A stretch of DNA of 33,504 nt from a virus. Position numbers and translations under genes: made by a program. Each line of letters begins with the position of its first letter. The first letter of the stretch is position 1. The notes under the pieces are model-generated. The model did not search any database and was not told the origin of the DNA. It worked only from the letters and a program-made list of their open reading frames with translations. Of this stretch, positions 22,228 through 33,504 are shown one piece after another. The stretch is from positions 1 to 33,504 of the IMG/VR virus record IMGVR_UViG_3300008448_000343. One strand, written 5' to 3'.

Positions 22228-22233
22228 AGTTTT

Positions 22234-22963: not shown

Positions 22964-22969
22964 AAAGAT

Positions 22970-22978: not shown

Positions 22979-22983
22979 CGGTA

Positions 22984-23450: not shown

Positions 23451-23459
23451 AATATCTAG

Positions 23460-23468: not shown

Positions 23469-23469
23469 T

Positions 23470-23726: not shown

Positions 23727-23996
23727 TTACTTCTTATCAACTTTGGCAATATGCTCAATTAAAATTCTATACATTTCGTCGAGTTTCTTTTCTTGTCTAT
23801 CTCTTGATCTTTCAGAATCTATTCTCTGTTCGTCTAATGCATTCTCTAATCTTGAAACCTGGTCTTTTAATGATGATCCAGAATTTGGCTTAAGTTCGCT
23901 TAAATAATGTTTTACCATCCACTTGATAGATAGACCGATTGATGATACAATTGTAAGTATTGCGACGATTAACGAAGCCCAGTCTTGGATTGTCAT
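23727..23996 (-). CDS. Holin-like membrane protein (DUF2746-like)
   Basis: 89 residues. One transmembrane segment (about residues 5-30, DWASLIVAILTIVSSIGLSIKW) is followed by ELKPNSGSSLKDQVSRLEN, a near copy of the LxPNGGSSLxDxVxRLE motif of the DUF2746 family in actinobacteriophages, then a charged coiled coil rich in Glu, Arg and Lys. Such proteins are often annotated as holins or lysis accessories. TATAAT lies nine bases before the ATG. It is divergent from the DHH-like gene at 24029, and followed by a gene-free stretch and a strong terminator. The lysis role is inferred. Confidence 0.75.
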   Translation of the reverse strand: MTIQDWASLIVAILTIVSSIGLSIKWMVKHYLSELKPNSGSSLKDQVSRLENALDEQRIDSERSRDRQEKKLDEMYRILIEHIAKVDKK

Positions 23997-24005
23997 AACT
24001 AGATT

Positions 24006-24011
24006 ATTATA
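24006..24011 (-). promoter_or_regulatory. -10 element (TATAAT) before the holin-like gene
   Basis: The minus-strand TATAAT at 24011-24006 lies nine bases before the ATG at 23996. The 32-base divergent gap must also hold the start signals of the plus-strand gene at 24029. Confidence 0.5.
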
Positions 24012-24028
24012 AGGGGTATTTTACAAAA

Positions 24029-24799
24029 ATGAAAACAGCCATACTCGAAACACTTGAGTATTCTAAGAATCTAATTATATCCCCCGACATGGATGGTTTT
24101 ATGACCGCAAAATTATTAGAGCGTTTTAACGGTTCGAAAATAGTCGGTTCATATGATAAAAATATTTTATGTCTCGCCGACGGTATCAATGCAGAAGATT
24201 GTTTATTCGTCGACTGCGATATGAATCGACAAGAGTTTGTTTCTCTCGGAAATCATATGCGCTTACTTGAGGACAATATGTCAGTCGAGTCGTTTAATCC
24301 AAATGTGCACTTTGGCGTTTCGACATATAGCGACAAGTTTCCTTTCGCAACCGCTTTTTTGGTAAGTTTCGCAACAGAGGTTCAAACCTCCGATATAGAC
24401 CTTATACGCATGGCTTTCGCTGATTCAACTCTAAAGAACATGGAGAAGTACAGCGATAACATGCGAAACTGGTCTACACGGATGGATCATCCTGCAGTAA
24501 AGTACATAACAGACAATTCGGACATTGCAAAAAGAAATGATGCACAAGCAAGGTTTGATTATGTTGACCAATCTTTTACATCCAAAAGATACGGCAAGGA
24601 AAGATACCTGGATACCCTAAACAATGCCCTAGCAGGCCAGGAGATGGCTTTTGAGCCACTAGTCCAGGGTATGAAGTACATGTGCGATAAAGTAGGTATC
24701 AACACCGTTATAAGGTATAATAGAGATATCATTTCGTATGCTGAGATATTCGGTGGAGAGTATTCTGTTACATATGATCAAGAAATAGAATGGAAGTAA
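24029..24799 (+). CDS. DHH-like phosphoesterase domain protein
   Basis: 256 residues. The N-terminal IISPDMDGFMTAKLLERF resembles the DxDG motif of DHH/RecJ-like phosphoesterases (D20, D22). DCLFVDCDMN (D62, D64) and LGNHM (N75, H76) stand where the second Asp motif and the DHH motif would be. The metal-binding set is incomplete (NH instead of DHH), so it may be a divergent or non-catalytic member. The remaining 180 residues are unassigned. AAGGGG gives a modest Shine-Dalgarno. With two small downstream genes it forms a plus-strand operon inside a minus-strand region. Function uncertain: nucleotide or oligonucleotide metabolism is the first guess. Confidence 0.6.
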   Translation: MKTAILETLEYSKNLIISPDMDGFMTAKLLERFNGSKIVGSYDKNILCLADGINAEDCLFVDCDMNRQEFVSLGNHMRLLEDNMSVESFNPNVHFGVSTYSDKFPFATAFLVSFATEVQTSDIDLIRMAFADSTLKNMEKYSDNMRNWSTRMDHPAVKYITDNSDIAKRNDAQARFDYVDQSFTSKRYGKERYLDTLNNALAGQEMAFEPLVQGMKYMCDKVGINTVIRYNRDIISYAEIFGGEYSVTYDQEIEWK

Positions 24800-24819
24800 G
24801 TGGTTTATATAAATCACTT
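24798..24819 (+). repeat. 22-bp inverted repeat after the DHH-like gene
   Basis: AAGTGGTTTA-TA-TAAATCACTT pairs along its length with two G-U pairs and directly follows the DHH-like coding region. No T-run follows, so it is a possible attenuator or processing site rather than a clear terminator. Confidence 0.4.
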
Positions 24820-24848
24820 TAAAATATCAAAGAGAGAGACGGTAGAAA

Positions 24849-25034
24849 ATGAATAAAGAAGAAATTATCGATTTCATGCTAGATAGCATCAATTCAGATA
24901 ACAGGGAAATGTGTAAGAATAATGGCCTAAGTGAAGAAGATACTCAAAAGCAGATCGATCAGAGTCAGCCAGCACTTACTTTTATTACAGCAAACCTATA
25001 CAAGAAACTAAAGGAGGCTGGCGTAATTGTCTAA
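24849..25034 (+). CDS. Small acidic helical protein
   Basis: 61 residues, predicted mostly helical (MNKEEIIDFMLDSINSD ... NLYKKLKEAGVIV). GAGAGAGA lies before the ATG. It is the middle gene of the plus-strand operon. No function can be assigned. Confidence 0.65.
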   Translation: MNKEEIIDFMLDSINSDNREMCKNNGLSEEDTQKQIDQSQPALTFITANLYKKLKEAGVIV

Positions 25035-25236
25035 GTATATATATAAGGTTGTCTTGCAGCCAATGGAAGATCTATATCTTCAAAATGCAGGAAAAGTATT
25101 TTTTAATACAGAAGAAGAGCGCCAAGCGTTTAATGCAGAACTAACTATTGAGGCTGACAGTCCAGAACAGTCACTTGCTATTAGAGTTGGAATTACTGAT
25201 ATCCGTATGTGGGAATTAGACCGTATCGAAGATTAA
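25027..25236 (+). CDS. Small protein with TTG start
   Basis: 69 residues. The frame starts with TTG at 25027, inside the upstream stop region, with AAGGAGG about 9 bases before it; no other start with a Shine-Dalgarno is available. The sequence is alpha/beta (YIYKVVLQPMEDLYL ... SLAIRVGITDIRMWELD). Function unknown. The overlap with the upstream gene indicates coupling. Confidence 0.62.
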   Translation: MSKYIYKVVLQPMEDLYLQNAGKVFFNTEEERQAFNAELTIEADSPEQSLAIRVGITDIRMWELDRIED

Positions 25237-25245
25237 TAGGTTAAG

Positions 25246-25299
25246 ACAAGGATTGGTTGATCGATCAAGAATATAGGGTCGATCACCAAACCAACTTGT
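25246..25299. terminator. Long stem-loop between convergent genes
   Basis: Arms ACAAGGATTGGTTGATCGA and TCGATCACCAAACCAACTTGT pair over most of their length (five-, six- and six-base perfect blocks with small bulges). Placed between a plus-strand and a minus-strand gene end, it probably terminates both. Confidence 0.65.
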
Positions 25300-25300
25300 T

Positions 25301-25897
25301 CTATAACTTTTCGTAATATCTTTTGTATAGTGTGTCTATAGATTTTTGCAAACCATCTATTTCTGATTTATATTCTGAAAGAAATAAATTTTCTACATCT
25401 TTATATTCTTTTGCACGTTCTCTCGGAAAGTTTCCAGTATATGGGTTATCAAACTTTGGGTTTTCACCTATTTTTTTGATGATTTCCTCTGCTGTGTATA
25501 TTTGATTTATGGGCAAGTCATTTTCTTTAGCAATAACATCAATTACAGCGTTGTGGTCTTTTGTAAATTCTGAAAATGGAGCAATAAACAGGCTTTTATC
25601 ATTTAGCAGATATTCTATATAAGATGAATATCTTTCAATAAGTTCTTCTGGATCACCAGTTCTTTTGTTAGTCTGAATGTTGTTTTCCACCACATAGTCT
25701 CTATACAACTTTGCAGATGTCATGGATGGCAATGCATCTCTTAGAGGAACTACGAATGGATAGTCTTTATCTCTGTTCTCTAGTGTTTCAACTTTATGTG
25801 ACCATAGTGGTACTGCTTCTATACCAAGTGTGTAGCCTATTGATCCCGCCAAAAATGTGTTACCAGATCTTTCGAAACCATCAACATATATTTTCAT
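25301..25897 (-). CDS. Sulfotransferase-like protein (copy 1)
   Basis: 198 residues. DGFERSGNTFLAGSIGY resembles the PAPS 5'-phosphate loop of sulfotransferases, and PLRDALPSMTSAKLYRDY the 3'-phosphate motif (R...S). FIAPFSEFTKDHNAVIDVIA matches the typical helix where the family has a loop of the form YExL. If active it would move sulfate from PAPS to a glycan or protein. It is clearly paralogous to the protein at 26680-27324 (RDALPS, SAKxYRDY, FTKDHN and FPRE/LPRE are shared). TGGTAAAAT lies six bases before the ATG. Kinases share the P-loop, so the assignment is moderate. Confidence 0.65.
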   Translation of the reverse strand: MKIYVDGFERSGNTFLAGSIGYTLGIEAVPLWSHKVETLENRDKDYPFVVPLRDALPSMTSAKLYRDYVVENNIQTNKRTGDPEELIERYSSYIEYLLNDKSLFIAPFSEFTKDHNAVIDVIAKENDLPINQIYTAEEIIKKIGENPKFDNPYTGNFPRERAKEYKDVENLFLSEYKSEIDGLQKSIDTLYKRYYEKL

Positions 25898-25903
25898 ATT
25901 ACC

Positions 25904-25912
25904 ATTTTACCA
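25904..25912 (-). promoter_or_regulatory. Extended -10 (TGGTAAAAT), leaderless start
   Basis: Minus-strand TGG-TAAAAT ends six bases before the ATG at 25897. There is no Shine-Dalgarno in the spacer. Confidence 0.45.
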
Positions 25913-25917
25913 TCAAT

Positions 25918-26466
25918 TTAGTTTATCCAAGAGACAACAGAATAGCGAGTTCCTTCCTCTACTGGGCTTATAGAGTGATTATATACGTATGTAGATGGAA
26001 ATAGAAGCAACTCGTTTGCTACTGGCTGGTAAGATATGCCAAATCTTGGAAATGAGATTATTCCTCCAGTAAAGTTATCGTTCAAATAGTATACCGAAGA
26101 TATGCGTCTATTCATACCGTGAAAATCATCAATGTGGTCTGTAAAAAATTGTCCTTGTCCATATCTTAATATGGCATAGTTTGTGTGATCTGGACAATAG
26201 GTCTTATAGGAAGCCATGTATTCTTTTTCTATTCTTTCAAAAGAATCAGAAAATGTTCTAGACATGTCTTTAGCAAAATCGTTGCTATTTTCTGAAATTT
26301 TATATTTAACGACAGATAGGTCTGTATCTCTATATTTCTTCTCTTCACCAGCCATTGTTTTTGCTGCTTCCCAGATTGGCTCAGAAGATTGTATTCTATT
26401 TGTTATTTCAGAATAATTTTTAATTACATCCTTGTATAGCATTATTCCTGGAGCGAGTTCTTGCAT
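25918..26466 (-). CDS. 2OG-Fe(II) oxygenase, prolyl 4-hydroxylase-like (copy 7)
   Basis: 182 residues. H111-I-D113 in FFTDHIDDFHG, distal H164 in VYNHSISP, R173 in GTRYSVVSWIN, and VYYLNDNFTGGIISFPRFG between. It resembles copies 4 and 5 in the FPSTYVYNH segment but keeps the arginine. It lies between two sulfotransferase-like genes, 11-13 kb from the other oxygenases, with a 3-base gap to the upstream small gene. Substrate unknown. Confidence 0.85.
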   Translation of the reverse strand: MQELAPGIMLYKDVIKNYSEITNRIQSSEPIWEAAKTMAGEEKKYRDTDLSVVKYKISENSNDFAKDMSRTFSDSFERIEKEYMASYKTYCPDHTNYAILRYGQGQFFTDHIDDFHGMNRRISSVYYLNDNFTGGIISFPRFGISYQPVANELLLFPSTYVYNHSISPVEEGTRYSVVSWIN

Positions 26467-26469
26467 GAC

Positions 26470-26679
26470 TTAGTCTTTGCAAGAGCAGTTTGAGCAGATA
26501 TTATCTGAAAATAATTTTACAGACAGGGATGTCTCTTCTGGTCTTCCTGCATCTTCCCAAAAAGATTCTCTTCCCATGTTATCTGTTATTGGCATAGGCT
26601 TAGATTCAAACTCAGGTGCCTTTGGCTCTTCCTGGAAATCTAAGTCCCAGGCGTTTTCAAAATTTTCTAATATTCCCAT
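26470..26679 (-). CDS. Small acidic protein with C-terminal Cys cluster
   Basis: 69 residues: acidic, Pro/Glu-rich and probably disordered, ending DNICSNCSCKD. The three cysteines at the very C-terminus could bind metal or be modified. GGGAG precedes the ATG. It is encoded between a sulfotransferase-like gene and oxygenase copy 7, so it could be a small substrate or carrier for these enzymes, like the leader peptide of a modification pathway. That is speculative. Confidence 0.6.
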   Translation of the reverse strand: MGILENFENAWDLDFQEEPKAPEFESKPMPITDNMGRESFWEDAGRPEETSLSVKLFSDNICSNCSCKD

Positions 26680-27324
26680 TTATTTTCTATCTCCCGTCGT
26701 ATTTTTGTTATACTCTAACTCTAGAGCATAATATCTATTATATAGTTTGTTTATATTAGACTGAATATGATCTATGTCATCTGAATAATCTTTTAATATG
26801 AGTTCTTCTATTTCGTCTTTTAGTTCATACTTTTCTCTTGGAAGGTTTCCAATTTCAGGCTCATAGATTGTTTTAATTATAGATGATGCTCTCTCAGAAA
26901 TCTCTTCATAGGTTACTGGCCTTACATTTTCTAGGACTGGATATGTGTAGGCTATCAGATCTATAACCTTGTTGTGATCTTTTGTAAATTCCTGAAATGG
27001 GGCTATAAAGAATTTTGGATTGTCTATTAGGTATTGGGTGTACTCTTTATACCTGGCGATTATGTTCTCTAGTAGCGTATTTTCTATGTCATACGAATTG
27101 GAAAGTTTGTTATTGTAAAAATAGTCTCTATATATTTTTGCAGACACTATAGATGGGAGAGCATCTCTCAGTGTGATTATAAAAGGCTCTACACCGTCAT
27201 ATACTTGTAGTGGGTATAGTTTGTGATCTGGGCTTGATATAACATCTATTCCCGTTGCTAAAGAAATTGCATAGGCAAAGAATGTGCTTCCACTTCTTTC
27301 CAGCGATTCTATATGTATGTACAC
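26680..27324 (-). CDS. Sulfotransferase-like protein (copy 2)
   Basis: 214 residues from a GTG at 27324, with AGGAG about 11 bases before it. ESLERSGSTFFAYAISLATG is the 5'-phosphate loop equivalent, TLRDALPSIVSAKIYRDY the 3'-phosphate motif, and FIAPFQEFTKDHNKVIDLIA follows. It is paralogous to copy 1 over its whole length. First gene of a four-gene minus-strand operon. TGATATAAT lies 35 bases before the start, giving a leader with Shine-Dalgarno. Confidence 0.66.
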   Translation of the reverse strand: MYIHIESLERSGSTFFAYAISLATGIDVISSPDHKLYPLQVYDGVEPFIITLRDALPSIVSAKIYRDYFYNNKLSNSYDIENTLLENIIARYKEYTQYLIDNPKFFIAPFQEFTKDHNKVIDLIAYTYPVLENVRPVTYEEISERASSIIKTIYEPEIGNLPREKYELKDEIEELILKDYSDDIDHIQSNINKLYNRYYALELEYNKNTTGDRK

Positions 27325-27545
27325 TTCAGGAGACTCCTAAGCAGCCTTGGTTATTTATCAATTATATCACTATTCTGAAAAAATTTAAAAATCCAAATAC
27401 CCCAAAATCTGAATATTTTTACCAGATGTATGATGCAGGTTTTTAAAGGATGTGGGGTAAAAATATAGTGAGCACATACACGTCCCAAAATTTTGATGTT
27501 TTTTATTTTAATTTATTTTTAATTTAAATTATTTTAATTTAATTT
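27325..27545. other. Intergenic AT-rich stretch
   Basis: No gene is seen. It holds the promoter of the sulfotransferase operon (minus-strand TGATATAAT near 27360-27370) and an extreme A/T tract from about 27496 to 27548, almost pure AATTTA/TTTTAA words. This could be a terminator tail of the 28.5-27.6 kb operon, or an easily melted region. Confidence 0.45.
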
Positions 27546-27597
27546 ACTAGGAGGCACCAATAGTTTTTTTATTTAACTACTGGTACCTACCTAATAA
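27546..27597 (-). terminator. Imperfect long hairpin after the small-gene operon
   Basis: Arms TACTAGGAGGCACCAATAGT and ACTACTGGTACCTACCTAATA can pair with a few mismatches around a T-rich loop, about 20 bases after the stop of the gene at 27614. On the minus strand a long A/T tract follows. Probable terminator; the stem is not perfect. Confidence 0.5.
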
Positions 27598-27613
27598 ATA
27601 TTAGTGGGTGGTG

Positions 27614-27904
27614 CTAACTAGATTTACTTAGTATGGGCACCACTTTTCTATCAACCCACGCCTTCATTTTTTCAGTGTCTTTGGCTTGCTTTAGGTCAAT
27701 GCTAGTGATACCTAAATCTCTAACTACTTTGCTAGTTTCTACTACAATAGTTTTAGCGAAAGCAACACCTAAAAGTTTTAACCCTAAAGGAATTGCGACC
27801 ACCGCACCGATTGTTAGCACTAGCATCATAACCGCCATGAAGATAAGTGAGTACTGAACTACATTAGCAAACCACTCGAATGGTGCAGAAATAAAATCGA
27901 ACAT
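27614..27904 (-). CDS. Small membrane protein
   Basis: 96 residues. A long hydrophobic region (about residues 18-50, YSLIFMAVMMLVLTIGAVV then IPLGLKLLGVAFA) should form one or two transmembrane helices; the C-terminal half is charged (VDRKVVPILSKSS). AAGGAG precedes the ATG. It is the last gene of a minus-strand operon of small genes. It could be a holin-like or superinfection-related membrane protein; the sequence does not decide. Confidence 0.68.
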   Translation of the reverse strand: MFDFISAPFEWFANVVQYSLIFMAVMMLVLTIGAVVAIPLGLKLLGVAFAKTIVVETSKVVRDLGITSIDLKQAKDTEKMKAWVDRKVVPILSKSS

Positions 27905-27913
27905 TTATTCTCC

Positions 27914-28123
27914 TTAGTCTGATGTAGTGAGTGTTGATACAGGAGTGAGTGAGTCTAGGTAATCTTGTCTTACCTTAGACATAACTCTATCTATTTGTGC
28001 GTAAGCATTAGCGCACTTATAGCAATAGGTTTCTGTGTTGATTCCTAGCATAAAGGCATCTGTACCGCTATAAACCAACTCTGTTGAGTCGCAGTTAATT
28101 ACCTTGCATGTATTTGTGTTCAT
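27914..28123 (-). CDS. Small zinc-ribbon-like protein
   Basis: 69 residues. CKVINC near the N-terminus and CYKC near residue 33 could make a four-cysteine zinc site (CxxxxC ... CxxC). A helical C-terminal half follows (AQIDRVMSKVRQDYLDS). AAAGAGA is a weak Shine-Dalgarno. Similar tiny cysteine proteins occur in the plus-strand operons. Function unknown. Confidence 0.66.
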   Translation of the reverse strand: MNTNTCKVINCDSTELVYSGTDAFMLGINTETYCYKCANAYAQIDRVMSKVRQDYLDSLTPVSTLTTSD

Positions 28124-28127
28124 TTAT

Positions 28128-28232
28128 TTATCTCTTTTCTTTAGTGCATGAGCAGGGGTTGATTGTTATTTGTTTTCCTTTTTGCGTAACTATTGCTAGG
28201 GTATTGCATGAGGAGCATAAGTATAAGTGCAT
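28128..28232 (-). CDS. 34-residue Cys-rich peptide
   Basis: MHLYLCSSCNTLAIV then TQKGKQITINPCSCTKEKR: a CxxC and a CxC pair suggest a miniature zinc ribbon. The ATG shares an A with the upstream TAA (TAATG), and the frame fills the gap to the next gene, so it is likely a real coupled gene in the operon. Function unknown. Confidence 0.55.
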   Translation of the reverse strand: MHLYLCSSCNTLAIVTQKGKQITINPCSCTKEKR

Positions 28233-28324
28233 TAGTATTCACTATCCTTATCTAGTACTGTTGGGATAAGTACAATTATAGTGCATAGCACTGACAAGGC
28301 TAGGATGATCATAGGTAGGCTCAT
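28232..28324 (-). CDS. 30-residue single-pass membrane peptide
   Basis: MSLPMIILALSVLCT then IIVLIPTVLDKDSEY: one transmembrane helix and a short acidic tail. It starts within the upstream stop (TAATGA) and ends within the next start. The chain of overlapping start and stop codons supports translation. Function unknown. Confidence 0.55.
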   Translation of the reverse strand: MSLPMIILALSVLCTIIVLIPTVLDKDSEY

Positions 28325-28530
28325 TAGTTATTTTCCTCTCTAGTTAGGATAAAGTCGCGCTTATGGCGATTTAACTCAAAAATAGCACCATTGGTACAGA
28401 TAACACGCATAGCGCTACCATTCCATTTTCTAATCTTTAACACTACCCCCGACTTAACAAGGTTCATGCAATTAGGTAGGGTAATGGTATCGCCTACCTC
28501 GATGTTATCGTAGTTACTTAATGTAGTCAT
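28324..28530 (-). CDS. Small beta-rich protein
   Basis: 68 residues, with IEVGDTITLPNC, GVVLKIRKWNG and GAIFELNRHKRDFIL, a pattern like a small SH3/KOW barrel. AAAGGTGGTC precedes the ATG, the same Shine-Dalgarno form as in the plus-strand small-gene operons. First gene of the minus-strand operon. Function unknown; nucleic-acid binding is a guess from the fold. Confidence 0.66.
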   Translation of the reverse strand: MTTLSNYDNIEVGDTITLPNCMNLVKSGVVLKIRKWNGSAMRVICTNGAIFELNRHKRDFILTREENN

Positions 28531-28557
28531 TTAATGACCACCTTTCTTTTTTTCTAT

Positions 28558-28580
28558 GGTATCTATTTGATACCCTTTTT
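28558..28580. promoter_or_regulatory. Hairpin in the leader of the minus-strand small-gene operon
   Basis: GGTATC-TATTT-GATACC followed by C and five Ts on the plus strand. On that strand it looks like a terminator, but no plus-strand gene lies upstream. On the minus strand it is a leader hairpin 28 bases before the first ATG. Confidence 0.4.
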
Positions 28581-28602
28581 CCTTGCCTAGGTTATTTGCT
28601 TT

Positions 28603-28648
28603 TTATTTGCTACGCTCACCCTATTGCTAGGTTTATTTGGTAGGCTCA
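28603..28648 (-). repeat. Leader element pair 1 (TGAGCCTAGCAAATAA type)
   Basis: Two copies read on the minus strand: TGAGCCTACCAAATAA (28648-28633) and TGAGCGTAGCAAATAA (28618-28603). They lie downstream of the promoter at 28694-28722, so they would be transcribed in this sense. Same element at 28778-28826 and 29913-29964. Confidence 0.6.
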
Positions 28649-28693
28649 AAGGCTCACTAGGATTTATCTTTATTTAATTTTTCTTACTATGTA

Positions 28694-28722
28694 AGTGTAA
28701 CAGATAAATGTCATACTGTCTA
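28694..28722 (-). promoter_or_regulatory. Sigma70-type promoter 2 of the minus-strand small-gene operon
   Basis: Minus strand: TAGACA (28722-28717), 17-base spacer, TACACT (28699-28694), with TGT before the -10. A CRP-like dyad (28763-28778) is centred at about -83.5. Confidence 0.55.
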
Positions 28723-28762
28723 GTATACTCACCAGTAGTCTCACTATGTGGAGCGTGTACTA

Positions 28763-28778
28763 TGTGATTTAGGTCACT
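28763..28778. promoter_or_regulatory. CRP-like dyad 1 (variant)
   Basis: TGTGA-TTTAGG-TCACT, one mismatch from TGTGA-N6-TCACA. It abuts a leader element copy (28778-28793). Confidence 0.5.
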
Positions 28779-28826
28779 TATTCGCTAGGCTCATATAACA
28801 ATTCGTTATCTTATTTGCTAGGCTCA
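28778..28826 (-). repeat. Leader element pair 2
   Basis: Minus strand: TGAGCCTAGCAAATAA (28826-28811) and TGAGCCTAGCGAATAA (28793-28778), 33 bases apart, separated by a small palindrome (ATAACGAATTGTTAT). They lie just downstream of the promoter at 28864-28892. Confidence 0.65.
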
Positions 28827-28863
28827 TAACCTTTTATCTCTATTTAATTTTTCTTATACTAGT

Positions 28864-28892
28864 ATAATAACACATCTACCACTAAAAGTCAA
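28864..28892 (-). promoter_or_regulatory. Sigma70-type promoter 1 of the minus-strand small-gene operon
   Basis: Minus strand: TTGACT (28892-28887), 17-base spacer, TATTAT (28869-28864). The CRP-like dyad at 28914-28929 is centred at about -64.5. Confidence 0.6.
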
Positions 28893-28913
28893 GTTATAAC
28901 ACGGCGTGTCGCA

Positions 28914-28929
28914 TGTGATATGCATCACA
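28914..28929. promoter_or_regulatory. CRP-like dyad 2
   Basis: TGTGA-TATGCA-TCACA, a perfect match to the CRP-family half sites and nearly palindromic across the centre. Followed at once by GGGACGTC (28931-28938). Confidence 0.65.
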
Positions 28930-28941
28930 CGGGACGTCTAA

Positions 28942-29019
28942 ATGACCAGTCTTGGGTGCATAGGTACATGACTGATCTTAGGTGCATATGCACATGACCA
29001 GTCTTAGGCGTATACGCCC
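28942..29019. repeat. Three 26-bp iterons with internal dyads
   Basis: Contiguous units start at 28942, 28968 and 28994, each opening ATGAC(C/T)(A/G)(G/A)TCTT. The second ends with the perfect palindrome GTGCATATGCAC, the third with a different perfect palindrome, GGCGTATACGCC, and the first with an imperfect one. Iterons beside DnaA-type boxes are typical of replication origins or repressor clusters. Confidence 0.8.
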
Positions 29020-29024
29020 ATATA

Positions 29025-29075
29025 GGGGGGTGTATATAGGGGGGGTATATATAGGGGGTATATGGGGACGTCCCC
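29025..29075. repeat. Four G-tracts ending in a GGGGACGTCCCC palindrome
   Basis: G-runs of 6, 7, 5 and 4 (29025, 29039, 29054, 29064) are separated by TATA-rich linkers of 6-8 bases. The last run belongs to the 12-base palindrome GGGGACGTCCCC. A G-quadruplex on the plus strand is possible. Confidence 0.6.
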
Positions 29076-29095
29076 TGTGGATAACCTGTGTATAA
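29076..29095. promoter_or_regulatory. Two DnaA-box-like sites, 11 bp apart
   Basis: TGTGGATAA (29076-29084), the complement of the DnaA box TTATCCACA, is followed 11 bases on by TGTGTATAA (29087-29095). The pair recurs at 33139-33158. Confidence 0.6.
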
Positions 29096-29099
29096 CTAA

Positions 29100-29115
29100 T
29101 GTGATGCTTATCACA
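29100..29115. promoter_or_regulatory. CRP-like dyad 3
   Basis: TGTGA-TGCTTA-TCACA, centred at about -74.5 from the promoter at 29153-29175. Confidence 0.65.
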
Positions 29116-29152
29116 AAAATACTTTTCCGACACGCCCGAAAAACACCCCAAA

Positions 29153-29175
29153 ATGTCAGACCCCCCTGTTATACT
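29153..29175 (+). promoter_or_regulatory. RecA-NDp/PafBC-like promoter 1
   Basis: ATGTCAGAC, 8 bases, TATACT. It fits tTGTCRgtg-N8-TAnnnT, the actinobacterial LexA-independent DNA-damage promoter, with extended TGT before the -10. No -35 hexamer is seen. A leader hairpin (GTTAAAGA-AGG-TCTTTAAC) follows before the Shine-Dalgarno of the gene at 29228. Confidence 0.75.
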
Positions 29176-29227
29176 TACTAGTATAAAGAAAGTTAAAGAA
29201 GGTCTTTAACAAGAAAGGAGATAGTCA

Positions 29228-29410
29228 ATGACTAACTCACTATTTGGACAAGGGTTCGCTACACTTAGCGACTACCCTAAAGGCATGATGAACTTATGCC
29301 AATGCGGTCAGGTAATACTCGCCCCCGCTACAATTCATGACATTTGTACAACAAATGGCGACTCTTATGGTCGTACTTGCTACCACTCACAATGTGGTCG
29401 CTCTCTCTAA
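29228..29410 (+). CDS. Small Cys-rich protein
   Basis: 60 residues. CQCG (residues 24-27) and CYHSQCG near the C-terminus, with one more Cys between, suggest a zinc ribbon. AAAGGAG precedes the ATG. It is the first gene of operon 1, behind a RecA-NDp-like promoter. Function unknown. Confidence 0.68.
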   Translation: MTNSLFGQGFATLSDYPKGMMNLCQCGQVILAPATIHDICTTNGDSYGRTCYHSQCGRSL

Positions 29411-29458
29411 GTAATTAGAGAAAAACAAAACTAACTAAAAAGAAAGGTCGTTAAATAA

Positions 29459-29554
29459 ATGACACTAGATGAATACAAGGCGCTTGTAGAAGCGCAACGC
29501 AAGGAAAGCCTTGCAATTGCCCTATCCTTACTAAAGAAAGAAACAAATAAATGA
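29459..29554 (+). CDS. 31-residue helical peptide
   Basis: MTLDEYKALVEAQRK then ESLAIALSLLKKETNK should be one amphipathic helix. AGAAAGG lies 12 bases before the ATG, as in other small genes here, and the TGA overlaps the next ATG (ATGA). Function unknown. Confidence 0.6.
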   Translation: MTLDEYKALVEAQRKESLAIALSLLKKETNK

Positions 29555-29736
29555 AAACTGACTATGAATTAGAACAAGAATTGCAAGAGCAATTTAACGA
29601 ATACCTAAATGATTCGCATGACCCAGTAATGATTGCAGGAATTTTATTTTATCCTGCCGACATTCTAAAAGAATGCGACCCAATTGCTTATCGTGTTTTC
29701 TTAAATGATTTTGAATCTTATTTAGAAAACGAATAA
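29551..29736 (+). CDS. Small conserved phage-type protein
   Basis: 61 residues, acidic: a helical N-terminus, then VMIAGILFYPADILKECDPIAY followed by RVFLNDFESYL. The core FxPxDILKExDPIAYxxxxxDF is a motif I recognise from small hypothetical proteins in many actinophages and cyanophages. Function unknown. Last gene of operon 1, followed by a terminator. Confidence 0.72.
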   Translation: MKTDYELEQELQEQFNEYLNDSHDPVMIAGILFYPADILKECDPIAYRVFLNDFESYLENE

Positions 29737-29741
29737 AAACC

Positions 29742-29773
29742 AAGATCGCAGAAATAAAAAATCTGCGATTTTT
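29742..29773 (+). terminator. Rho-independent terminator of operon 1
   Basis: Stem ATCGCAGA (29745-29752) with TCTGCGAT (29762-29769), extendable by A-T pairs, then four to five Ts. It directly follows the last gene of operon 1. Confidence 0.8.
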
Positions 29774-29785
29774 GGGACGTCGTTT

Positions 29786-29799
29786 CGAACAGATGTTCG
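29786..29799. promoter_or_regulatory. LexA-type SOS box
   Basis: CGAAC-AGAT-GTTCG, with T on both outer sides, fits the Gram-positive/actinobacterial LexA box (TCGAAC-N4-GTTCGA; CGAACRNRYGTTYG-like). It lies 1 base before CRP-like dyad 4 and upstream of the promoter at 29847-29875. Confidence 0.65.
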
Positions 29800-29815
29800 T
29801 ATGATGTAAATCACA
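29800..29815. promoter_or_regulatory. CRP-like dyad 4 (variant)
   Basis: TATGA-TGTAAA-TCACA: right half exact, left half with mismatches. Centred at about -74.5 from the promoter at 29847-29875. Confidence 0.5.
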
Positions 29816-29846
29816 TCAAAAATGTCCGTTTTGTGCGTGTCTAAAC

Positions 29847-29875
29847 TTGACTTTTTGACTTTTATCTGCTAGTAT
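29847..29875 (+). promoter_or_regulatory. Sigma70-type promoter of operon 2
   Basis: TTGACT (29847-29852), 17-base spacer, TAGTAT (29870-29875) with TGC before it. Two leader elements (29913-29964) lie downstream in the transcribed sense, then a second, RecA-NDp-like promoter. Confidence 0.65.
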
Positions 29876-29912
29876 TACTACTATAACAATTAAATAATGA
29901 CAGTTTAGCCAA

Positions 29913-29964
29913 TGAGCCTAAGCAAATAAATGTGACCAGTATCACAGTGAGCCTTAGCAAATAA
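29913..29964 (+). repeat. Leader element pair 3 around a CRP-like dyad
   Basis: TGAGCCTAAGCAAATAA (29913-29929) and TGAGCCTTAGCAAATAA (29948-29964) are direct repeats 35 bases apart, with CRP-like dyad 5 filling the gap exactly. Same element as the two minus-strand pairs but in plus orientation, like the promoter upstream of it. Confidence 0.7.
29931..29946. promoter_or_regulatory. CRP-like dyad 5
   Basis: TGTGA-CCAGTA-TCACA, centred at about -64.5 from RecA-NDp-like promoter 2. Confidence 0.65.
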
Positions 29965-29973
29965 GTGGCAAAA

Positions 29974-29996
29974 ATGTCAGCCCCCCATGATAAGAT
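29974..29996 (+). promoter_or_regulatory. RecA-NDp/PafBC-like promoter 2
   Basis: ATGTCAGCC, 8 bases, TAAGAT, with TGA before the -10. A palindrome (GATAAGA-TAG-TCTTATC) overlaps the -10 and the predicted start. GAAAGGAAG then precedes the ATG at 30030. Confidence 0.72.
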
Positions 29997-30029
29997 AGTC
30001 TTATCAACTTAACGAAAGGAAGTCTATAA

Positions 30030-30227
30030 ATGACTTACACTATAACACTAGAAACCTTTAATGGTTCTACCAAAAAAATCAACCTTGCCTCAAAAGGTGC
30101 GGTTGCTCAATTCATCTCAACTTATCCAACACAGTTACCTGTTGGCGTTGCAGTAAAGGTTGCTTGCGACACTCTCGGAATTAGTGGCACACTTCGTGGC
30201 ACTCTTACACCCTCAAAATCAAACTAA
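30030..30227 (+). CDS. Small protein, first gene of operon 2
   Basis: 65 residues, beta then helix (YTITLETFNGSTKKINL ... GVAVKVACDTLGISG), ending TLTPSKSN. Strong Shine-Dalgarno (GAAAGGAAG). Function unknown. Confidence 0.65.
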   Translation: MTYTITLETFNGSTKKINLASKGAVAQFISTYPTQLPVGVAVKVACDTLGISGTLRGTLTPSKSN

Positions 30228-30246
30228 AGAATAGGAAATAAAATAA

Positions 30247-30453
30247 ATGACTAAAGTAGAACACTCACTAAAGTTCGTAACAGAGTTCGATGAAACTCAC
30301 CCAGTAGCACAACAGGCCCTCGCTATCCCTCATGCAGATTTGGTTGCCATGCTTGAGGGAATGCTAAAAGATTTTCTTGTGCCTGCAATCGGTCCTGTCC
30401 TTGATGAAATAAATGAGCGAGGCACTTATGCAATTCTAAAGGTGGTCGAATAA
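30247..30453 (+). CDS. Small helical protein
   Basis: 68 residues, with HPVAQQALAIPHADLVAMLEG then LKDFLVPAIGPVLDEIN; two amphipathic helices. ATAGGAAATAAA lies before the ATG, and the TAA overlaps the next start. Function unknown. Confidence 0.65.
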   Translation: MTKVEHSLKFVTEFDETHPVAQQALAIPHADLVAMLEGMLKDFLVPAIGPVLDEINERGTYAILKVVE

Positions 30454-30644
30454 TGATGACTCGTAAAGACTATGTAGCAACTGCTGAAATTCTAAAAAGT
30501 TATTCAGAGTTAATTGACCAATTTACTTTTGAAGATTTAATCTATGATTTTTCAGACATGTTTTTATCAGATAACCCACGCTTTAACCCAATGACTTTTA
30601 AAATTGCGTGTGGTGTAAATGATTTAGCAAATAGTAATTCATAA
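30453..30644 (+). CDS. Small conserved phage-type protein
   Basis: 63 residues; a second ATG one codon later is equally possible. TRKDYVATAEILKSY, then LIYDFSDMFLSDNPRFNP and FKIACG. Proteins beginning with the RKDYxxIAxxL motif and ending in DNPRFxxxxFxxACG are common hypothetical proteins in phages of actinobacteria and cyanobacteria. Function unknown. Last gene of operon 2. Confidence 0.72.
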   Translation: MMTRKDYVATAEILKSYSELIDQFTFEDLIYDFSDMFLSDNPRFNPMTFKIACGVNDLANSNS

Positions 30645-30720
30645 TAAAAAAATCCTGAGCATGATTTAAAACTGCTCCACACTCAAAATTTTGGGACGTC
30701 GCTGTCGGGCGTGTCGTCCA

Positions 30721-30736
30721 CATGACGCAGATCACA
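30721..30736. promoter_or_regulatory. CRP-like dyad 6 (variant)
   Basis: CATGA-CGCAGA-TCACA: right half exact, left half CATGA. It lies 41 bases before dyad 7, about four helical turns. Confidence 0.45.
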
Positions 30737-30761
30737 CTCAAAATTGAGCGTAAGTTATCCA

Positions 30762-30777
30762 CATGACCTGTATCACA
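30762..30777. promoter_or_regulatory. CRP-like dyad 7 (variant)
   Basis: CATGA-CCTGTA-TCACA, centred at about -75.5 from RecA-NDp-like promoter 3. It overlaps the end of a DnaA box. Confidence 0.5.
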
Positions 30778-30815
30778 TTTCAAAATGTCCGATTTGTGGC
30801 ATTACTGGTCAGTAG

Positions 30816-30838
30816 ATGTCAGACCCCCATGCTACACT
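30816..30838 (+). promoter_or_regulatory. RecA-NDp/PafBC-like promoter 3
   Basis: ATGTCAGAC, 8 bases, TACACT, with TGC before the -10. A leader hairpin (TAAGGG ... CCCTTA) lies between it and the Shine-Dalgarno AAAGGTGG of the gene at 30894. Confidence 0.75.
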
Positions 30839-30893
30839 TACAGTATAAAGAAAAATAAGGGTAAAGAAATCCCTTAAAGAAAGGTGGTCTAAA

Positions 30894-31067
30894 ATGACTA
30901 CATTAACAAAATGCGTTGAGCATAACCCTATGAAATCTGCTATCTCCGAAATCGGTGATGAGCAATTTACCTTCTGCCAAAATTGTGAGCAGAACATTGA
31001 GCGTTGGTATAACGATACCGACCCAGAACGACTACCTATGTGGTCAGATTGGAAGGTATCTCAATGA
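30894..31067 (+). CDS. 57-residue protein with possible zinc site
   Basis: TKCVEHNP near the N-terminus, then FTFCQNCEQNIERWY: Cys7, His10, Cys28 and Cys31 could bind zinc. AAAGGTGG precedes the ATG, and the TGA overlaps the next ATG. First gene of operon 3. Function unknown. Confidence 0.62.
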   Translation: MTTLTKCVEHNPMKSAISEIGDEQFTFCQNCEQNIERWYNDTDPERLPMWSDWKVSQ

Positions 31068-31174
31068 TAGACTTCGTAAAACAATTAGAATTAAATAACT
31101 ATCTTGCAGACGAGCAGATAGACCCACTAGCAAAAATGCTAGATGAACTAATAAAAAAAGGAGAATACAAATGA
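31064..31174 (+). CDS. 36-residue helical peptide
   Basis: MIDFVKQLELNNYLADEQ then IDPLAKMLDELIKKGEYK: two short helices, acidic. The ATG overlaps the upstream stop (ATGA), and its own TGA overlaps the next ATG. The AAAGGAG inside its 3' end is the Shine-Dalgarno of the next gene. Confidence 0.58.
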   Translation: MIDFVKQLELNNYLADEQIDPLAKMLDELIKKGEYK

Positions 31175-31335
31175 GCACATTTGTACCAATCAAATCAGTA
31201 TGCGGTGCGGTTAGCACTAGCATAGACATCTATGACCTTGACCTAAACCCTCATGGTGTTATCTGTTGCGATAACTGCAAGTCAATTATTCTATGCCGTA
31301 AGGCTTGGGATTTTCTATACAAGAAAGGAGAATAA
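31171..31335 (+). CDS. 54-residue Cys-rich protein
   Basis: VCGAV, then VICCDNCKSIILC: five cysteines, four of them within about 11 residues, a compact zinc-ribbon-like knuckle. AAAGGAG lies 8 bases before the ATG. Function unknown; one of several Cys-rich small proteins in this region. Confidence 0.62.
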   Translation: MSTFVPIKSVCGAVSTSIDIYDLDLNPHGVICCDNCKSIILCRKAWDFLYKKGE

Positions 31336-31339
31336 CTAA

Positions 31340-31492
31340 ATGGCTATTTTTAATTTTGAGTTATTCGTTGATGTCGAAGCAGATGATTTTGAGTCTGCAC
31401 TATCATGGCTAAAGGCTATGCCACTTGAGAGACAATTAGACTTTCATGTTATTGACTATAGAGAAATGAAAGGAGAAATAGATGAAAACTAA
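31340..31492 (+). CDS. 50-residue protein
   Basis: MAIFNFELFVDVEADDF then ESALSWLKAMPLERQ: a strand, an acidic helix and a second strand (LDFHVIDY). AAAGGAG precedes the ATG. It overlaps the next gene by 11 bases. Function unknown. Confidence 0.6.
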   Translation: MAIFNFELFVDVEADDFESALSWLKAMPLERQLDFHVIDYREMKGEIDEN

Positions 31493-31643
31493 CTTTGAGA
31501 TAGCGCAAGAAATTAACACTCTTGCAAAAAAACACTATGGTGAAATGGATTTAGCATTTTCTTGGGGTTGCGCTCAAGGATTGCTAACTGCAAAACAATT
31601 AGAGTTAATTCTTGGAATACTAAAAGAAAAAGAGGAAAACTAA
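31482..31643 (+). CDS. 53-residue helical protein
   Basis: MKTNFEIAQEINTLAKKH, then MDLAFSWGCAQGLLTAKQLE and ILGILKEKEEN, all helical. GAAAGGAG lies just before the ATG, inside the upstream gene. Function unknown. Confidence 0.6.
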   Translation: MKTNFEIAQEINTLAKKHYGEMDLAFSWGCAQGLLTAKQLELILGILKEKEEN

Positions 31644-31733
31644 ATGATTGACTTTTTTGTAAATGGAAATGCACTCTTTTGGTTTTCAATGATCTGTTTA
31701 GCAAGCGGATTTTATTTATTTGTAAAAGAGTAG
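31644..31733 (+). CDS. 29-residue membrane peptide
   Basis: MIDFFVNGNALFW then FSMICLASGFYLFVKE: a single transmembrane helix. It begins immediately after the upstream TAA, with AAAGAGG as Shine-Dalgarno. Last gene of operon 3. Function unknown; comparable to the 30-residue membrane peptide at 28232-28324. Confidence 0.55.
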   Translation: MIDFFVNGNALFWFSMICLASGFYLFVKE

Positions 31734-31826
31734 AAAAACGGGACGTCGCGTTCGGGCGTGTCGCCACGCTGTGAGATTTATCACATAGGCTGAGCGTCTC
31801 ACTATTTGGATTTACTCGCTAGTAAC
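31734..31826. other. Control region between operons 3 and 4, upstream part
   Basis: No gene. GGGACGTCG (31740-31748) and TTCGGGCGTGTCG (31751-31763) repeat the arrangement at 30693-30716 almost exactly, before CRP-like dyad 8. No terminator hairpin is seen after the last gene of operon 3. Confidence 0.55.
31770..31785. promoter_or_regulatory. CRP-like dyad 8
   Basis: TGTGA-GATTTA-TCACA, centred at about -84.5 from the promoter at 31827-31855. Confidence 0.65.
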
Positions 31827-31855
31827 TTGATAATTTATGGTTAATAGGCTAAACT
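31827..31855 (+). promoter_or_regulatory. Sigma70-type promoter of operon 4
   Basis: TTGATA (31827-31832), 17-base spacer, TAAACT (31850-31855). A RecA-NDp-like promoter follows 31 bases downstream, the same tandem order as in front of operon 2. Confidence 0.6.
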
Positions 31856-31885
31856 TACATAGTAAGAAAAATAAATAACAAAGAT

Positions 31886-31908
31886 TTGTCAGACCCTAAT
31901 GGTAGGAT
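31886..31908 (+). promoter_or_regulatory. RecA-NDp/PafBC-like promoter 4
   Basis: TTGTCAGAC, 8 bases, TAGGAT, with TGG before the -10. The first T of the consensus is present here. No leader hairpin is seen in this one. Confidence 0.72.
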
Positions 31909-31940
31909 AGATTTAATAACAAAAAGAAAGAGGTTGGCAA

Positions 31941-32153
31941 ATGTCAGCAAATGTCTATACAATAGAAAACCTACTTGTAGGAAAAACTTATAAGTCACGC
32001 ACTTTAACAGGCGAAATTATAGATGCAGAAAAGTCTGATGTCTTTTATGGCGCAGGTTTAGAAAGTTATCGTGTTCAGGTTCGCCCACACTATCCTTCAG
32101 TATTTAATCTAAAGGATACTTATCGTATTCTATCAGTAAGAATTGGAGAATAA
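31941..32153 (+). CDS. Small beta-rich protein, first gene of operon 4
   Basis: 70 residues with VYTIENLLVGKTYKSRTLTG, ESYRVQVRPHYP and TYRILSVRIGE, the pattern of a small beta barrel (SH3-like). AAAGAGG precedes the ATG. Function unknown. Confidence 0.66.
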   Translation: MSANVYTIENLLVGKTYKSRTLTGEIIDAEKSDVFYGAGLESYRVQVRPHYPSVFNLKDTYRILSVRIGE

Positions 32154-32157
32154 ATAA

Positions 32158-32349
32158 ATGGGAAACTTAATCGAATTTTTGGTTGATTGTGTTGATTGCC
32201 ATGATGAAGGCGTAATTTTTTGGGGAAACTCATCGGGTGAGTATGACTCAGAATTTTGCGATTGCAATAAAGGCGTGTCGCTTGAAAATGAATACTGTGC
32301 ATGGTATGCTGAAAGTATCATGAACGAAAACTATAAGGAGAATAACTAA
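32158..32349 (+). CDS. Small Cys-rich zinc-ribbon-like protein
   Basis: 63 residues. DCVDCHDEGVIFWG and FCDCNKGVSL form a DnaJ-like CxxC ... CxC pair with a GxxFWG turn between, likely one zinc site. AATTGGAG lies before the ATG. Its TAA overlaps the next ATG. Function unknown. Confidence 0.68.
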   Translation: MGNLIEFLVDCVDCHDEGVIFWGNSSGEYDSEFCDCNKGVSLENEYCAWYAESIMNENYKENN

Positions 32350-32567
32350 TGAACGAATACCTATACTCAGTAACTACTACTAATGACGGAGAGGCTAAGC
32401 CTAATTGGATTGGTCGCTACTCAGATGCTTTATCTGCCGTTGAAGTTTATCAGAGATTTATTGACCACGGATTTGCTAATGAATTCCGTACAATAAATTT
32501 ATCAGAGCCTAGTGGCAAAATGCATACAAAGATTTTGTATCGCAGTGGAATTGTAGGAGGTAAGTAA
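32349..32567 (+). CDS. Small alpha/beta protein
   Basis: 72 residues with EYLYSVTTTNDGEAKPNWIG, then a helix (DALSAVEVYQRFIDHG) and a final strand (KMHTKILYRSGI). AAGGAG precedes the ATG. Function unknown. Confidence 0.66.
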   Translation: MNEYLYSVTTTNDGEAKPNWIGRYSDALSAVEVYQRFIDHGFANEFRTINLSEPSGKMHTKILYRSGIVGGK

Positions 32568-32855
32568 ATGGGAAGTGTTACAGCAATTGGATTAGCAGAC
32601 TCAGTATTAGATTTAGAAACGCAATTAGCGTATCACTTACAGGGTAATCACTATCCTCCAGTACCGCTAAGCATGGTGCAACCTTGCATCGAAGCAATTG
32701 ATGCATACTATGATGAGGACTATGACCGATTTATTGCTATGCCCGAAGGCGTATTCTATAAGGGCATGAGTCATGCACCAGCACACGCAATTGTAGACCA
32801 ACACCACCTATCTTGGTTTATTGACCCAGTAAATGAATTTGAAGATGAGGAATAA
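32568..32855 (+). CDS. Small acidic protein
   Basis: 95 residues, the longest gene in the plus-strand small-gene region. Helical N-terminus, then HYPPVPLSMVQPCIEAIDAYY, EGVFYKGMSHAPAHAIVDQHH and LSWFIDPVNEFEDEE. The section PPVPxxMVxPCIEAIDAYxxxDxxxxI is a pattern seen in small hypothetical proteins of actinophages. GGAGG precedes the ATG. Function unknown. Confidence 0.7.
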   Translation: MGSVTAIGLADSVLDLETQLAYHLQGNHYPPVPLSMVQPCIEAIDAYYDEDYDRFIAMPEGVFYKGMSHAPAHAIVDQHHLSWFIDPVNEFEDEE

Positions 32856-32856
32856 A

Positions 32857-33099
32857 ATGTCTGATACAATGATTGCTATGGATTTAATACACGCTGATAA
32901 CTTGCAGCCAGATCAACTAATGCTAGGCGATTTAATAAAAATTGGAGATGACATTGTTGAAATTCTTTTTATTGAAAGTGATTCCACTGGCGATAACTAT
33001 GATGTACAAACAGAAAATGAATTTGGAGAAAAAGAAGTAACGCAGTATAGTTACACTGATACAATTCCTCTTTATGTTTTTATAGAGCAAGAGGAATAA
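32857..33099 (+). CDS. Small acidic beta-rich protein
   Basis: 80 residues from the ATG at 32857, chosen over an ATG eight codons earlier because it has GATGAGGA at the right distance and starts just after the upstream stop. LGDLIKIGDDIVEILFIES, then NYDVQTENEFGEKEV: a small barrel, broadly like the 68-residue protein at 28324-28530. Last gene of operon 4. Function unknown. Confidence 0.67.
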   Translation: MSDTMIAMDLIHADNLQPDQLMLGDLIKIGDDIVEILFIESDSTGDNYDVQTENEFGEKEVTQYSYTDTIPLYVFIEQEE

Positions 33100-33136
33100 T
33101 TTTTATGCACTTCCCCGCATAAAAAAATCGACGTCG
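33100..33136. other. Stem-loop and CGACGTCG palindrome after operon 4
   Basis: TTTTTATGC (33101-33109) and GCATAAAAA pair around an 8-base loop; all outer pairs are A-T, so it could end transcription in either direction. CGACGTCG (33129-33136) follows. Confidence 0.45.
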
Positions 33137-33138
33137 CC

Positions 33139-33158
33139 TGTGGATAACCTGTGGATAA
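33139..33158. promoter_or_regulatory. Two perfect DnaA boxes, 11 bp apart
   Basis: TGTGGATAA occurs at 33139-33147 and 33150-33158 within an 11-base tandem unit (CCTGTGGATAA); a third, decayed unit starts at 33159 and runs into CRP-like dyad 9. Confidence 0.65.
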
Positions 33159-33162
33159 CCTG

Positions 33163-33178
33163 TGTGACGCTTATCACA
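33163..33178. promoter_or_regulatory. CRP-like dyad 9
   Basis: TGTGA-CGCTTA-TCACA, centred at about -75.5 from RecA-NDp-like promoter 5. Confidence 0.65.
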
Positions 33179-33216
33179 ATTCTTTGACTAGTCAGACCAT
33201 GCGACACGCTGGCTAT

Positions 33217-33239
33217 TTGTCAGTCCCCCATGCTAGACT
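33217..33239 (+). promoter_or_regulatory. RecA-NDp/PafBC-like promoter 5
   Basis: TTGTCAGTC, 8 bases, TAGACT, with TGC before the -10. This is the closest of the five to tTGTCRgtg-N8-TAnnnT. A leader hairpin (TCAGAAA-AGG-TTTCTGA) follows before AGAAAGGG. Confidence 0.78.
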
Positions 33240-33289
33240 TACAGTATAAAGAAAGTCAGAAAAGGTTTCTGAACTAGAAAGGGTCAAAA

Positions 33290-33370
33290 ATGACTAACAA
33301 TGAATTAAAAGATTTTGATGGTATTGAGCAACGCTCATGCGATTGCGATAACGAATACTGCTATTGCTAA
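33290..33370 (+). CDS. 26-residue peptide with CDCDNEYCYC tail
   Basis: MTNNELKDFDGIEQRS then CDCDNEYCYC: an acidic start and four cysteines in the last ten residues. AGAAAGGG lies before the ATG, directly behind promoter 5. The tail looks like a metal-binding or disulfide-forming module. Function unknown. Confidence 0.58.
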   Translation: MTNNELKDFDGIEQRSCDCDNEYCYC

Positions 33371-33391
33371 TAAAAGAAAGGTAATGAATAA

Positions 33392-33504
33392 ATGGATACT
33401 TATAACAGAATACTAAAAGAGCAACAAGAAAAAAGAATTGCTCAATCAATAAAAGATAAAGCGGTTATTGAAGCCATGTTCTCCAATAACAATCGCCCCC
33501 TTAA
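33392..33504 (+). CDS. Small charged protein, cut by the window end
   Basis: 37 codons are visible (MDTYNRILKEQQEKRI, AQSIKDKAVIEAMFS...), helical and charged, still open at 33504. AAAGG lies 13 bases before the ATG, the spacing seen at 29459. Function unknown. Confidence 0.5.
   Translation, partial: MDTYNRILKEQQEKRIAQSIKDKAVIEAMFSNNNRPL

Follow-up and report, generated by a model that had tools for sequence, protein, structure and literature searches.

TGTCRG-box promoters combined with phased CRP-type sites in a lineage of uncultured, probable actinophages

Results

The window analysed here, meaning the whole 33,504-nucleotide (nt) IMG/VR virus record IMGVR_UViG_3300008448_000343 (G+C 36.9%), holds most of its long open reading frames (ORFs), including tail and other phage proteins, on the minus strand up to about 27 kb, and its runs of small ORFs on the plus strand, from 29.2 kb onward up to the record end. 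The subject of this study is a promoter element that recurs in front of these small ORFs. At the five positions given in the initial annotation, (A/T)TGTCAG(A/C/T)C is followed by exactly 8 bases and TAnnnT, with a TG one base ahead of the -10 in every case. On the plus strand, box promoter 1 (ATGTCAGACCCCCCTGTTATACT, 29153..29175) precedes the ORF at 29228-29410, box promoter 2 (ATGTCAGCCCCCCATGATAAGAT, 29974..29996) the ORF at 30030-30227, box promoter 3 (ATGTCAGACCCCCATGCTACACT, 30816..30838) the ORF at 30894-31067, box promoter 4 (TTGTCAGACCCTAATGGTAGGAT, 31886..31908) the ORF at 31941-32153, and box promoter 5 (TTGTCAGTCCCCCATGCTAGACT, 33217..33239) an ATG at 33290, which opens a frame of 26 codons, below the size limit of the ORF list. 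The distance from the -10 to the next in-frame ATG (29228, 30030, 30894, 31941 and 33290) is 52, 33, 55, 32 and 50 nt, respectively. The small-ORF runs downstream of the five promoters span 29228..33502 (+), with operon limits deduced from spacing and a last run that reaches the record end. By eye, no -35 is visible at any of the five sites.

The strict five-site pattern occurs five times on the plus strand and never on the minus strand of the window, and was absent from 100 dinucleotide shuffles. A looser, published form of the motif, TGTCRG-N10-TAnnnT, has 9 matches in the window versus 0.6 expected, and the TGTCAG hexamer by itself is at background level (19 versus 18.45 expected), so that the geometry is the special part. 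The observation behind the initial annotation is confirmed and is larger than was stated there. Neither a sixth site nor the phased CRP-type sites described below had been listed. This sixth box promoter (TTGTCAGTGCTATGCACTATAAT, 28275..28297, minus strand) lies 42 nt ahead of an ATG at 28232 (-), has no TG-extended -10 and reads, from 28296 to 28275, TTGTCAGTG-CTATGCAC-TATAAT, which matches in full the consensus tTGTCRgtg-N8-TAnnnT of the actinobacterial DNA-damage promoter (RecA-NDp). Of doubtful function is a match to TGTCAG-N10-TAnnnT at 31942..31963 (+), within the coding start of the ORF at 31941-32153; the same coding start, ATGTCAGC[AC]AATGTCTATACAAT, gives such a match in three further phage records (G006, G018 and G038), and codon usage alone perhaps accounts for it. 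The remaining looser matches, at 24068 (-) and 29641 (-), look like chance.

The element is not confined to this record. Scanning IMG/VR with TGTCAGNCCCNNNTGNTANNNT yielded at least 120 stretches, and 48 of the 120 listed have two to nine copies; the canonical form, scanned with TGTCAGTGG, likewise yielded at least 120. In the 120 loci listed in the first scan, TGTCAG-N7-TGnTA occurs 422 times, versus 0-13 times at each of 13 other spacings. The 449 distinct contexts extracted are mainly of two subtypes, TGTCAG[ATC]CC and TGTCRGTGG/TGC; just ahead of the box there are three A/T-rich positions, and no column farther upstream is strongly conserved. A larger set of 1122 contexts comprises the distinct 82-mers that have a stretch resembling a ribosome-binding site (RBS) and an ATG within 140 nt as well as enough flank, other sites being dropped. 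The loci behind these tables (L006-L125, L164-L259 and L331-L368) were fetched by pattern, which makes the invariant columns in both a product of construction.

As a consequence, I repeated the test without requiring the pattern in nine phage records of 97-116 kb, which had been chosen for holding the box, together with the window (G002 was covered to base 100000 of 100390; of two further phage records used in this study, G070 was covered up to base 80000 of its 82596 and G059 up to base 20000 of its 30445). Among 1369 hexamers found 10 nt before TATAMT, TGTCAG ranks first with 49 occurrences, 104-fold over background, the next hexamer having 8, and among 180 letter permutations of the box followed by N10-TAnnnT it is found 115 times, versus 32 for the runner-up. 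In the nine phages, an RBS-like stretch and an ATG follow within 140 nt at 94 of 114 box sites versus 353 of 1952 box-less TATAMT controls; these 114 matches amount to 4-23 per genome, as opposed to 12 in total for a reversed control pattern. They lie mostly in one small-gene region and on one strand, in G038 close to both record ends, with divergent sites at the boundary of the region in G002, G006, G010 and G018. A chance origin is ruled out by the shuffles, the fixed spacing, the RBS-like and ATG context and the hexamer and permutation ranks. I take the five sites and the sixth to be promoters that serve the small genes, probably an early region, of a large uncultured actinophage.

Could these be plain constitutive sigma-A promoters with an extended -10, the box being a mere spacer element or the operator of a repressor? 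The TG before the -10 is indeed present in 772 of the 1122 contexts, a TTGACA-like hexamer (at most one mismatch) stands at a spacing of 16-19 in 191 of them (the other 931 have none), and the same region has ordinary promoters with CRP-type sites. However, the box dominates as a signal, has a fixed N10 spacing and is no palindrome, it is kept without the TG in 350 of the 1122 contexts, and within clusters TGTCRG is mostly accompanied by a -10 (16 of 21 in G040, 9 of 13 in G018). I therefore consider this explanation quite unlikely. A repressor or stoperator-like operator is not favoured, the box being non-palindromic and in clusters mostly paired with a -10, and TGTCA as an ordinary -35 with its -10 some 17 nt farther on was rejected, as the -10 is locked at N10.

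I also looked for the box in unrelated phage families, which would favour a reader supplied by the host. The record G049, in which canonical TGTCAGTGG sites dominate, proved to share genes with the same lineage: 29 of its 93 ORFs, including several structural genes, are common to both. It has 25 matches. Within some 15 kb (L182 and G049 14533-29621), 24 box matches share a single strand; most are TGTCAGTGG, and the TG-extended -10 is often lacking. Another phage group with a G+C of about 43% (L331, L333, L334, L340, L354, L355 and L364) has a single conserved canonical-type site, TTGTCAGTGGCGTG[AC]TATAGGAT, before a gene of unknown function; L331 retains the site although its upstream sequence differs. 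A single site of this kind is too little to conclude from.

Many box promoters have a second element farther upstream, an exact TGTGA-N6-TCACA palindrome, which is the CRP-type consensus. Of the 123 box promoters in the nine genomes and the window, 38 are preceded by such a palindrome at a distance of about 20-100 nt, versus none for each of 29 permuted palindromes, and it occurs within 170 nt upstream in 425 of the 1122 contexts. The distance from palindrome centre to box peaks at 36.5 (81), 46.5 (102) and 56.5 nt (49, with 28 at 57.5), beside a smaller, out-of-step group at 41.5 (33), although kinship among the 1122 contexts means that these phasing statistics overstate independence. Assuming that transcription starts 7 nt after the -10, the main peaks would lie near -64, -74 and -84, positions similar to those known from class I CRP promoters. 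The palindrome stands mostly in helical phase with the core promoter, as expected of class I activation. In the window, the palindrome at 29100..29115 is centred 46.5 nt upstream of box promoter 1, that at 29931..29946 lies 36.5 nt upstream of box promoter 2, that at 31770..31785 precedes box promoter 4 by 109.5 nt and that at 33163..33178 precedes box promoter 5 by 47.5 nt; box promoter 3 has only a two-mismatch palindrome upstream (30762-30777).

Some palindromes are in phase with promoters of the ordinary kind. An exact one at 28914..28929 is so placed (36.5) with respect to TTGACT-N17-TATTAT on the minus strand (28892-28864), as is the one at 31770..31785 (56.5) with respect to the promoter-like pair TTGATA-N17-TAAACT at 31827-31855, and by my own arithmetic the one-mismatch palindromes at 28763 and 29800 are in step (55.5 and 46.5, respectively) with promoter-like pairs as well. 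Since such pairs are no commoner in the window than in shuffles (18 versus 21.8), their pairing with CRP-type sites is suggestive only. The same slot relative to the CRP-type site can thus be taken by a -35 or by the box, as would be expected if the box stood in for the -35 contact. The Rhodococcus phage Trina has exact CRP-type palindromes, unaccompanied by the box, upstream of ATGs; they lie at 861, 129621, 131233 and 137263, the last repeating the first.

This promoter type is characteristic of a large, uncultured phage lineage, to which the Streptomyces phages Yaboi and Karimac are related. The window has 25 of its 46 ORFs in common with G010, and the G018 large terminase has 55% identity with those of Yaboi and Genie2 and about 51-55% with those of other Streptomyces phages of the family. 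Fourteen named phages were searched whole, 11 of them actinophages with hosts in Streptomyces, Rhodococcus, Microbacterium, Gordonia and Tsukamurella; none has a box cluster, each having 0-4 matches (14 in total, versus 11 for the reversed control), and none of these matches is of the two main subtypes. At the DUF932 gene, the box lies just upstream of the predicted start in G006, G010, G028, G035 and G040; in G002, G018 and G038 it falls on the predicted start or within it, that start being over-extended, and there is none at this gene in G023, Yaboi and Trina. It follows that this lineage either acquired the box or retained it, or else that the box goes with the hosts infected. These hosts are probably actinobacterial. 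A WhiB gene is present in 14 of 23 records, with the WhiB gene cluster in all nine genomes read, and such a gene serves as an actinophage mark in PMC10202952 and PMC6802176; from these papers and the low G+C, I infer that 'Ca. Nanopelagicales' is a plausible host.

None of the phages revealed an obvious reader of the box. No WYL protein was recognised in 48 phage records, and neither a sigma region 2 nor a cNMP-binding domain in 16 records each, many of the records being fragments. In Pfam scans of 30 G018 proteins, namely conserved ones or those in or near the clustered region, no DNA-binding family but WhiB was over its cut-off. WhiB proteins bind region 4 of sigma-A, and given its frequency in this lineage a phage WhiB riding on sigma-A might be suspected to read the box; however, Karimac, BillNye and Wakanda carry a homologous WhiB and have 0, 0 and 1 matches to the box pattern, respectively, which makes WhiB an extremely improbable reader, and I rejected it. 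With no phage-encoded reader recognised and WhiB unlikely, a host factor is the simplest reading.

It may be argued that a small phage-encoded activator reads the -26 box on the host's sigma-A polymerase, in the manner of MotA and AsiA of phage T4, the sites then being middle promoters. The geometry is of the same kind as in T4 middle promoters, the strict form of the box is confined to phages in the scans made, and three small protein families (a 54-100-residue family of the early region, a zinc-ribbon-like one and an acidic one) are present in all nine freshwater genomes and not in Yaboi, Wakanda and Trina. Against this stand the scans just described, which a novel small activator could escape, and the fact that the acidic, winged-helix-turn-helix-looking proteins near the cluster of G018 are not conserved across all nine genomes. 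On balance, such an activator seems rather unlikely.

Further elements were observed in the gaps upstream of the operons. A LexA-like box (TCGAACAGATGTTCGT, 29785-29800), one mismatch away from the LexA consensus TCGAAC-N4-GTTCGA, lies in the gap before box promoter 2; the window has three LexA-like sites with at most two mismatches versus 0.43 expected, and the exact core CGAAC-N4-GTTCG is otherwise found, among the nine genomes, in G006 only (two sites). The four exact copies of TTATCCACA in the window (29076, 30755, 33139 and 33150), a DnaA-box-like word, all lie in gaps before small-gene operons, and this word is present in one or the other orientation in 18 and 5 of 99 upstream regions of the lineage. 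Three repeated words for which I have no explanation, CGACACGCC (28 of 99), CACGCCCGA (19 of 99) and AAATCGGAC (14 of 99), are nearly confined to the regions upstream of box promoters. Elsewhere, the minus-strand genes of the window at 1132-1911, 25918-26466 and 13860-14648 encode two 2OG-Fe(II) oxygenase-like proteins and a DUF6065 protein. A G018 protein (L143:3074-3598) matches the Pfam family Proteasome (PF00227) over its cut-off, with an E-value of 1.4e-6; its family is present in eight of the nine freshwater genomes and not in Yaboi, Wakanda and Trina.

Discussion

The initial annotation held that the five sites have the geometry of the LexA-independent, damage-induced promoter that PafBC reads in mycobacteria. 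PMC5656591 gives the RecA-NDp consensus as tTGTCRgtg-N8-TAnnnT, and PMC8151990 gives the Mycobacterium tuberculosis motif as TGTCGG, TGTCAG or TGTCAC followed by N10-TA-N3-T. The box and the N10 spacing agree with the published motif, including its TGTCAG variant, and all five sites as well as the sixth conform to TGTCRG-N10-TAnnnT. The full consensus is matched by the sixth site and by the TGTCRGTG subtype; the five sites depart from it at positions 8-9, having [ACT]C there and not tg. According to PMC11804915, PafBC inserts itself between domain 4 of sigma-A and the promoter DNA, PafB lying on the -26 motif, and single-stranded DNA activates it. Judged from sequence, a host activator, most likely PafBC, may well read the box on sigma-A polymerase; I rate this at about an even chance, which makes it the best of the readings considered.

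Another host regulator could of course be the reader, for instance ClgR or an activator special to this host group. ClgR is cited as recognising the same motif (P1) in PMC5656591, which leaves open how ClgR and PafBC share it. Later work, cited in PMC8223512 and PMC6789036, assigns the motif to PafBC by binding in vivo, and I regard a regulator other than PafBC as unlikely.

Several observations count against the PafBC reading, beginning with the departure at positions 8-9 just mentioned. The box is at chance level in the 11 named actinophages, including the relatives from Streptomyces and Rhodococcus, hosts which presumably have PafBC themselves. A strict phage form, WWTGTCAGWCCCNNNTGNTATAMT, has two matches in 84,980 bacterial and archaeal genomes (in Saprospiraceae and Ruminococcus assemblies, none of them actinobacterial), where I estimate that about 7 would be expected by chance, so that hosts do not commonly have promoters of precisely this form. 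The scans of 30 G018 proteins turned up no DNA-repair family. PafBC is described as replacing the -35 contact, yet 191 of the 1122 contexts have a TTGACA-like -35, with spacings that peak at 17 (97) and 18 (79); these are either hybrids, or the box works differently. As for the second element, no palindrome lies within 160 nt of the 11 box promoters of G023 or the 4 of G028, and across the entire window there is no excess of palindromes with at most two mismatches (15 versus 22.1 expected).

Were PafBC the reader, the promoters could work as follows. The core would be a TGTCRG box near -26, exactly 10 nt before the -10, which is usually extended, and usually without a -35, and a PafBC-type activator supplied by the host would most likely hold the sigma-A RNA polymerase in place of the missing -35 contact. 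As mycobacterial PafBC acts once bound by single-stranded DNA, the operons would switch on, or rise in expression, when such DNA appears, be it from damage or from replication of the phage. The CRP-type site, which for the most part keeps to a single helical face as class I activation requires, would probably add control by the cyclic-nucleotide signalling of the host. The sequences show the architecture, how widely it occurs, its clustering and helical phase and its lack in named relatives that have other hosts; I infer that host PafBC reads the box, that host Crp reads the upstream site and that the region is early and damage-induced. More tentatively, I propose that a widespread lineage of low-GC actinophages responds to two sensors of the host by means of a single promoter design, with PafBC (for single-stranded DNA) at the -26 box in place of the -35 and Crp (for cyclic nucleotide and carbon state) at the phased site. 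If true, infection would amplify the expression of these genes once single-stranded DNA is set free by replication of the phage or by damage to the host, and would scale it to the nutrient state of the host. The findings suggest that these viruses may listen to their hosts' own stress sensors.

I found no title or abstract in one open literature library that describes PafBC-type promoters in phages, nor one on Crp at actinobacteriophage promoters. Should PafBC indeed be the reader, this would be, within the literature searched, the first described use by phages of the LexA-independent damage activator of actinobacteria, and it would be a use at a repeated promoter of a small-gene region (4-23 matches per genome in nine phages). 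Whether PafBC senses infection would become directly testable, as phages make single-stranded DNA in quantity, and the phased CRP-type sites would tie phage expression to the nutrient state of the host.

Comparison with known systems

The small-gene regions of the Stanwilliamsviridae (Streptomyces phages such as Yaboi and Karimac) belong to relatives, as the terminase of G018 (about 51-55% identity), shared core genes and WhiB indicate. In contrast to the present lineage, the box is at chance level in the 11 named actinophages searched, and Yaboi and Wakanda have no exact CRP-type palindrome. Like the T4 middle promoters, which depend on MotA and AsiA, the phage promoters have a box upstream of an extended -10 that would substitute for the -35 contact; the box is of another sequence, and no phage reader was recognised here. 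With the mycobacterial PafBC promoters (RecA-NDp, P1) they have in common TGTCRG, the 10 nt to TAnnnT, the position at -26 and, mostly, the lack of a -35. They differ in the [ACT]CC after TGTCAG at the five sites, the frequent TG-extended -10 and the phased CRP-type site, and no repair genes were recognised with them. As in class I CRP promoters of the Escherichia coli type, TGTGA-N6-TCACA lies upstream of the core at 10-nt steps, but the core has a -26 box instead of a -35. What is new is that a -26 box promoter and a phased CRP-type site are found together, and that this arrangement recurs throughout a widespread lineage of phages.

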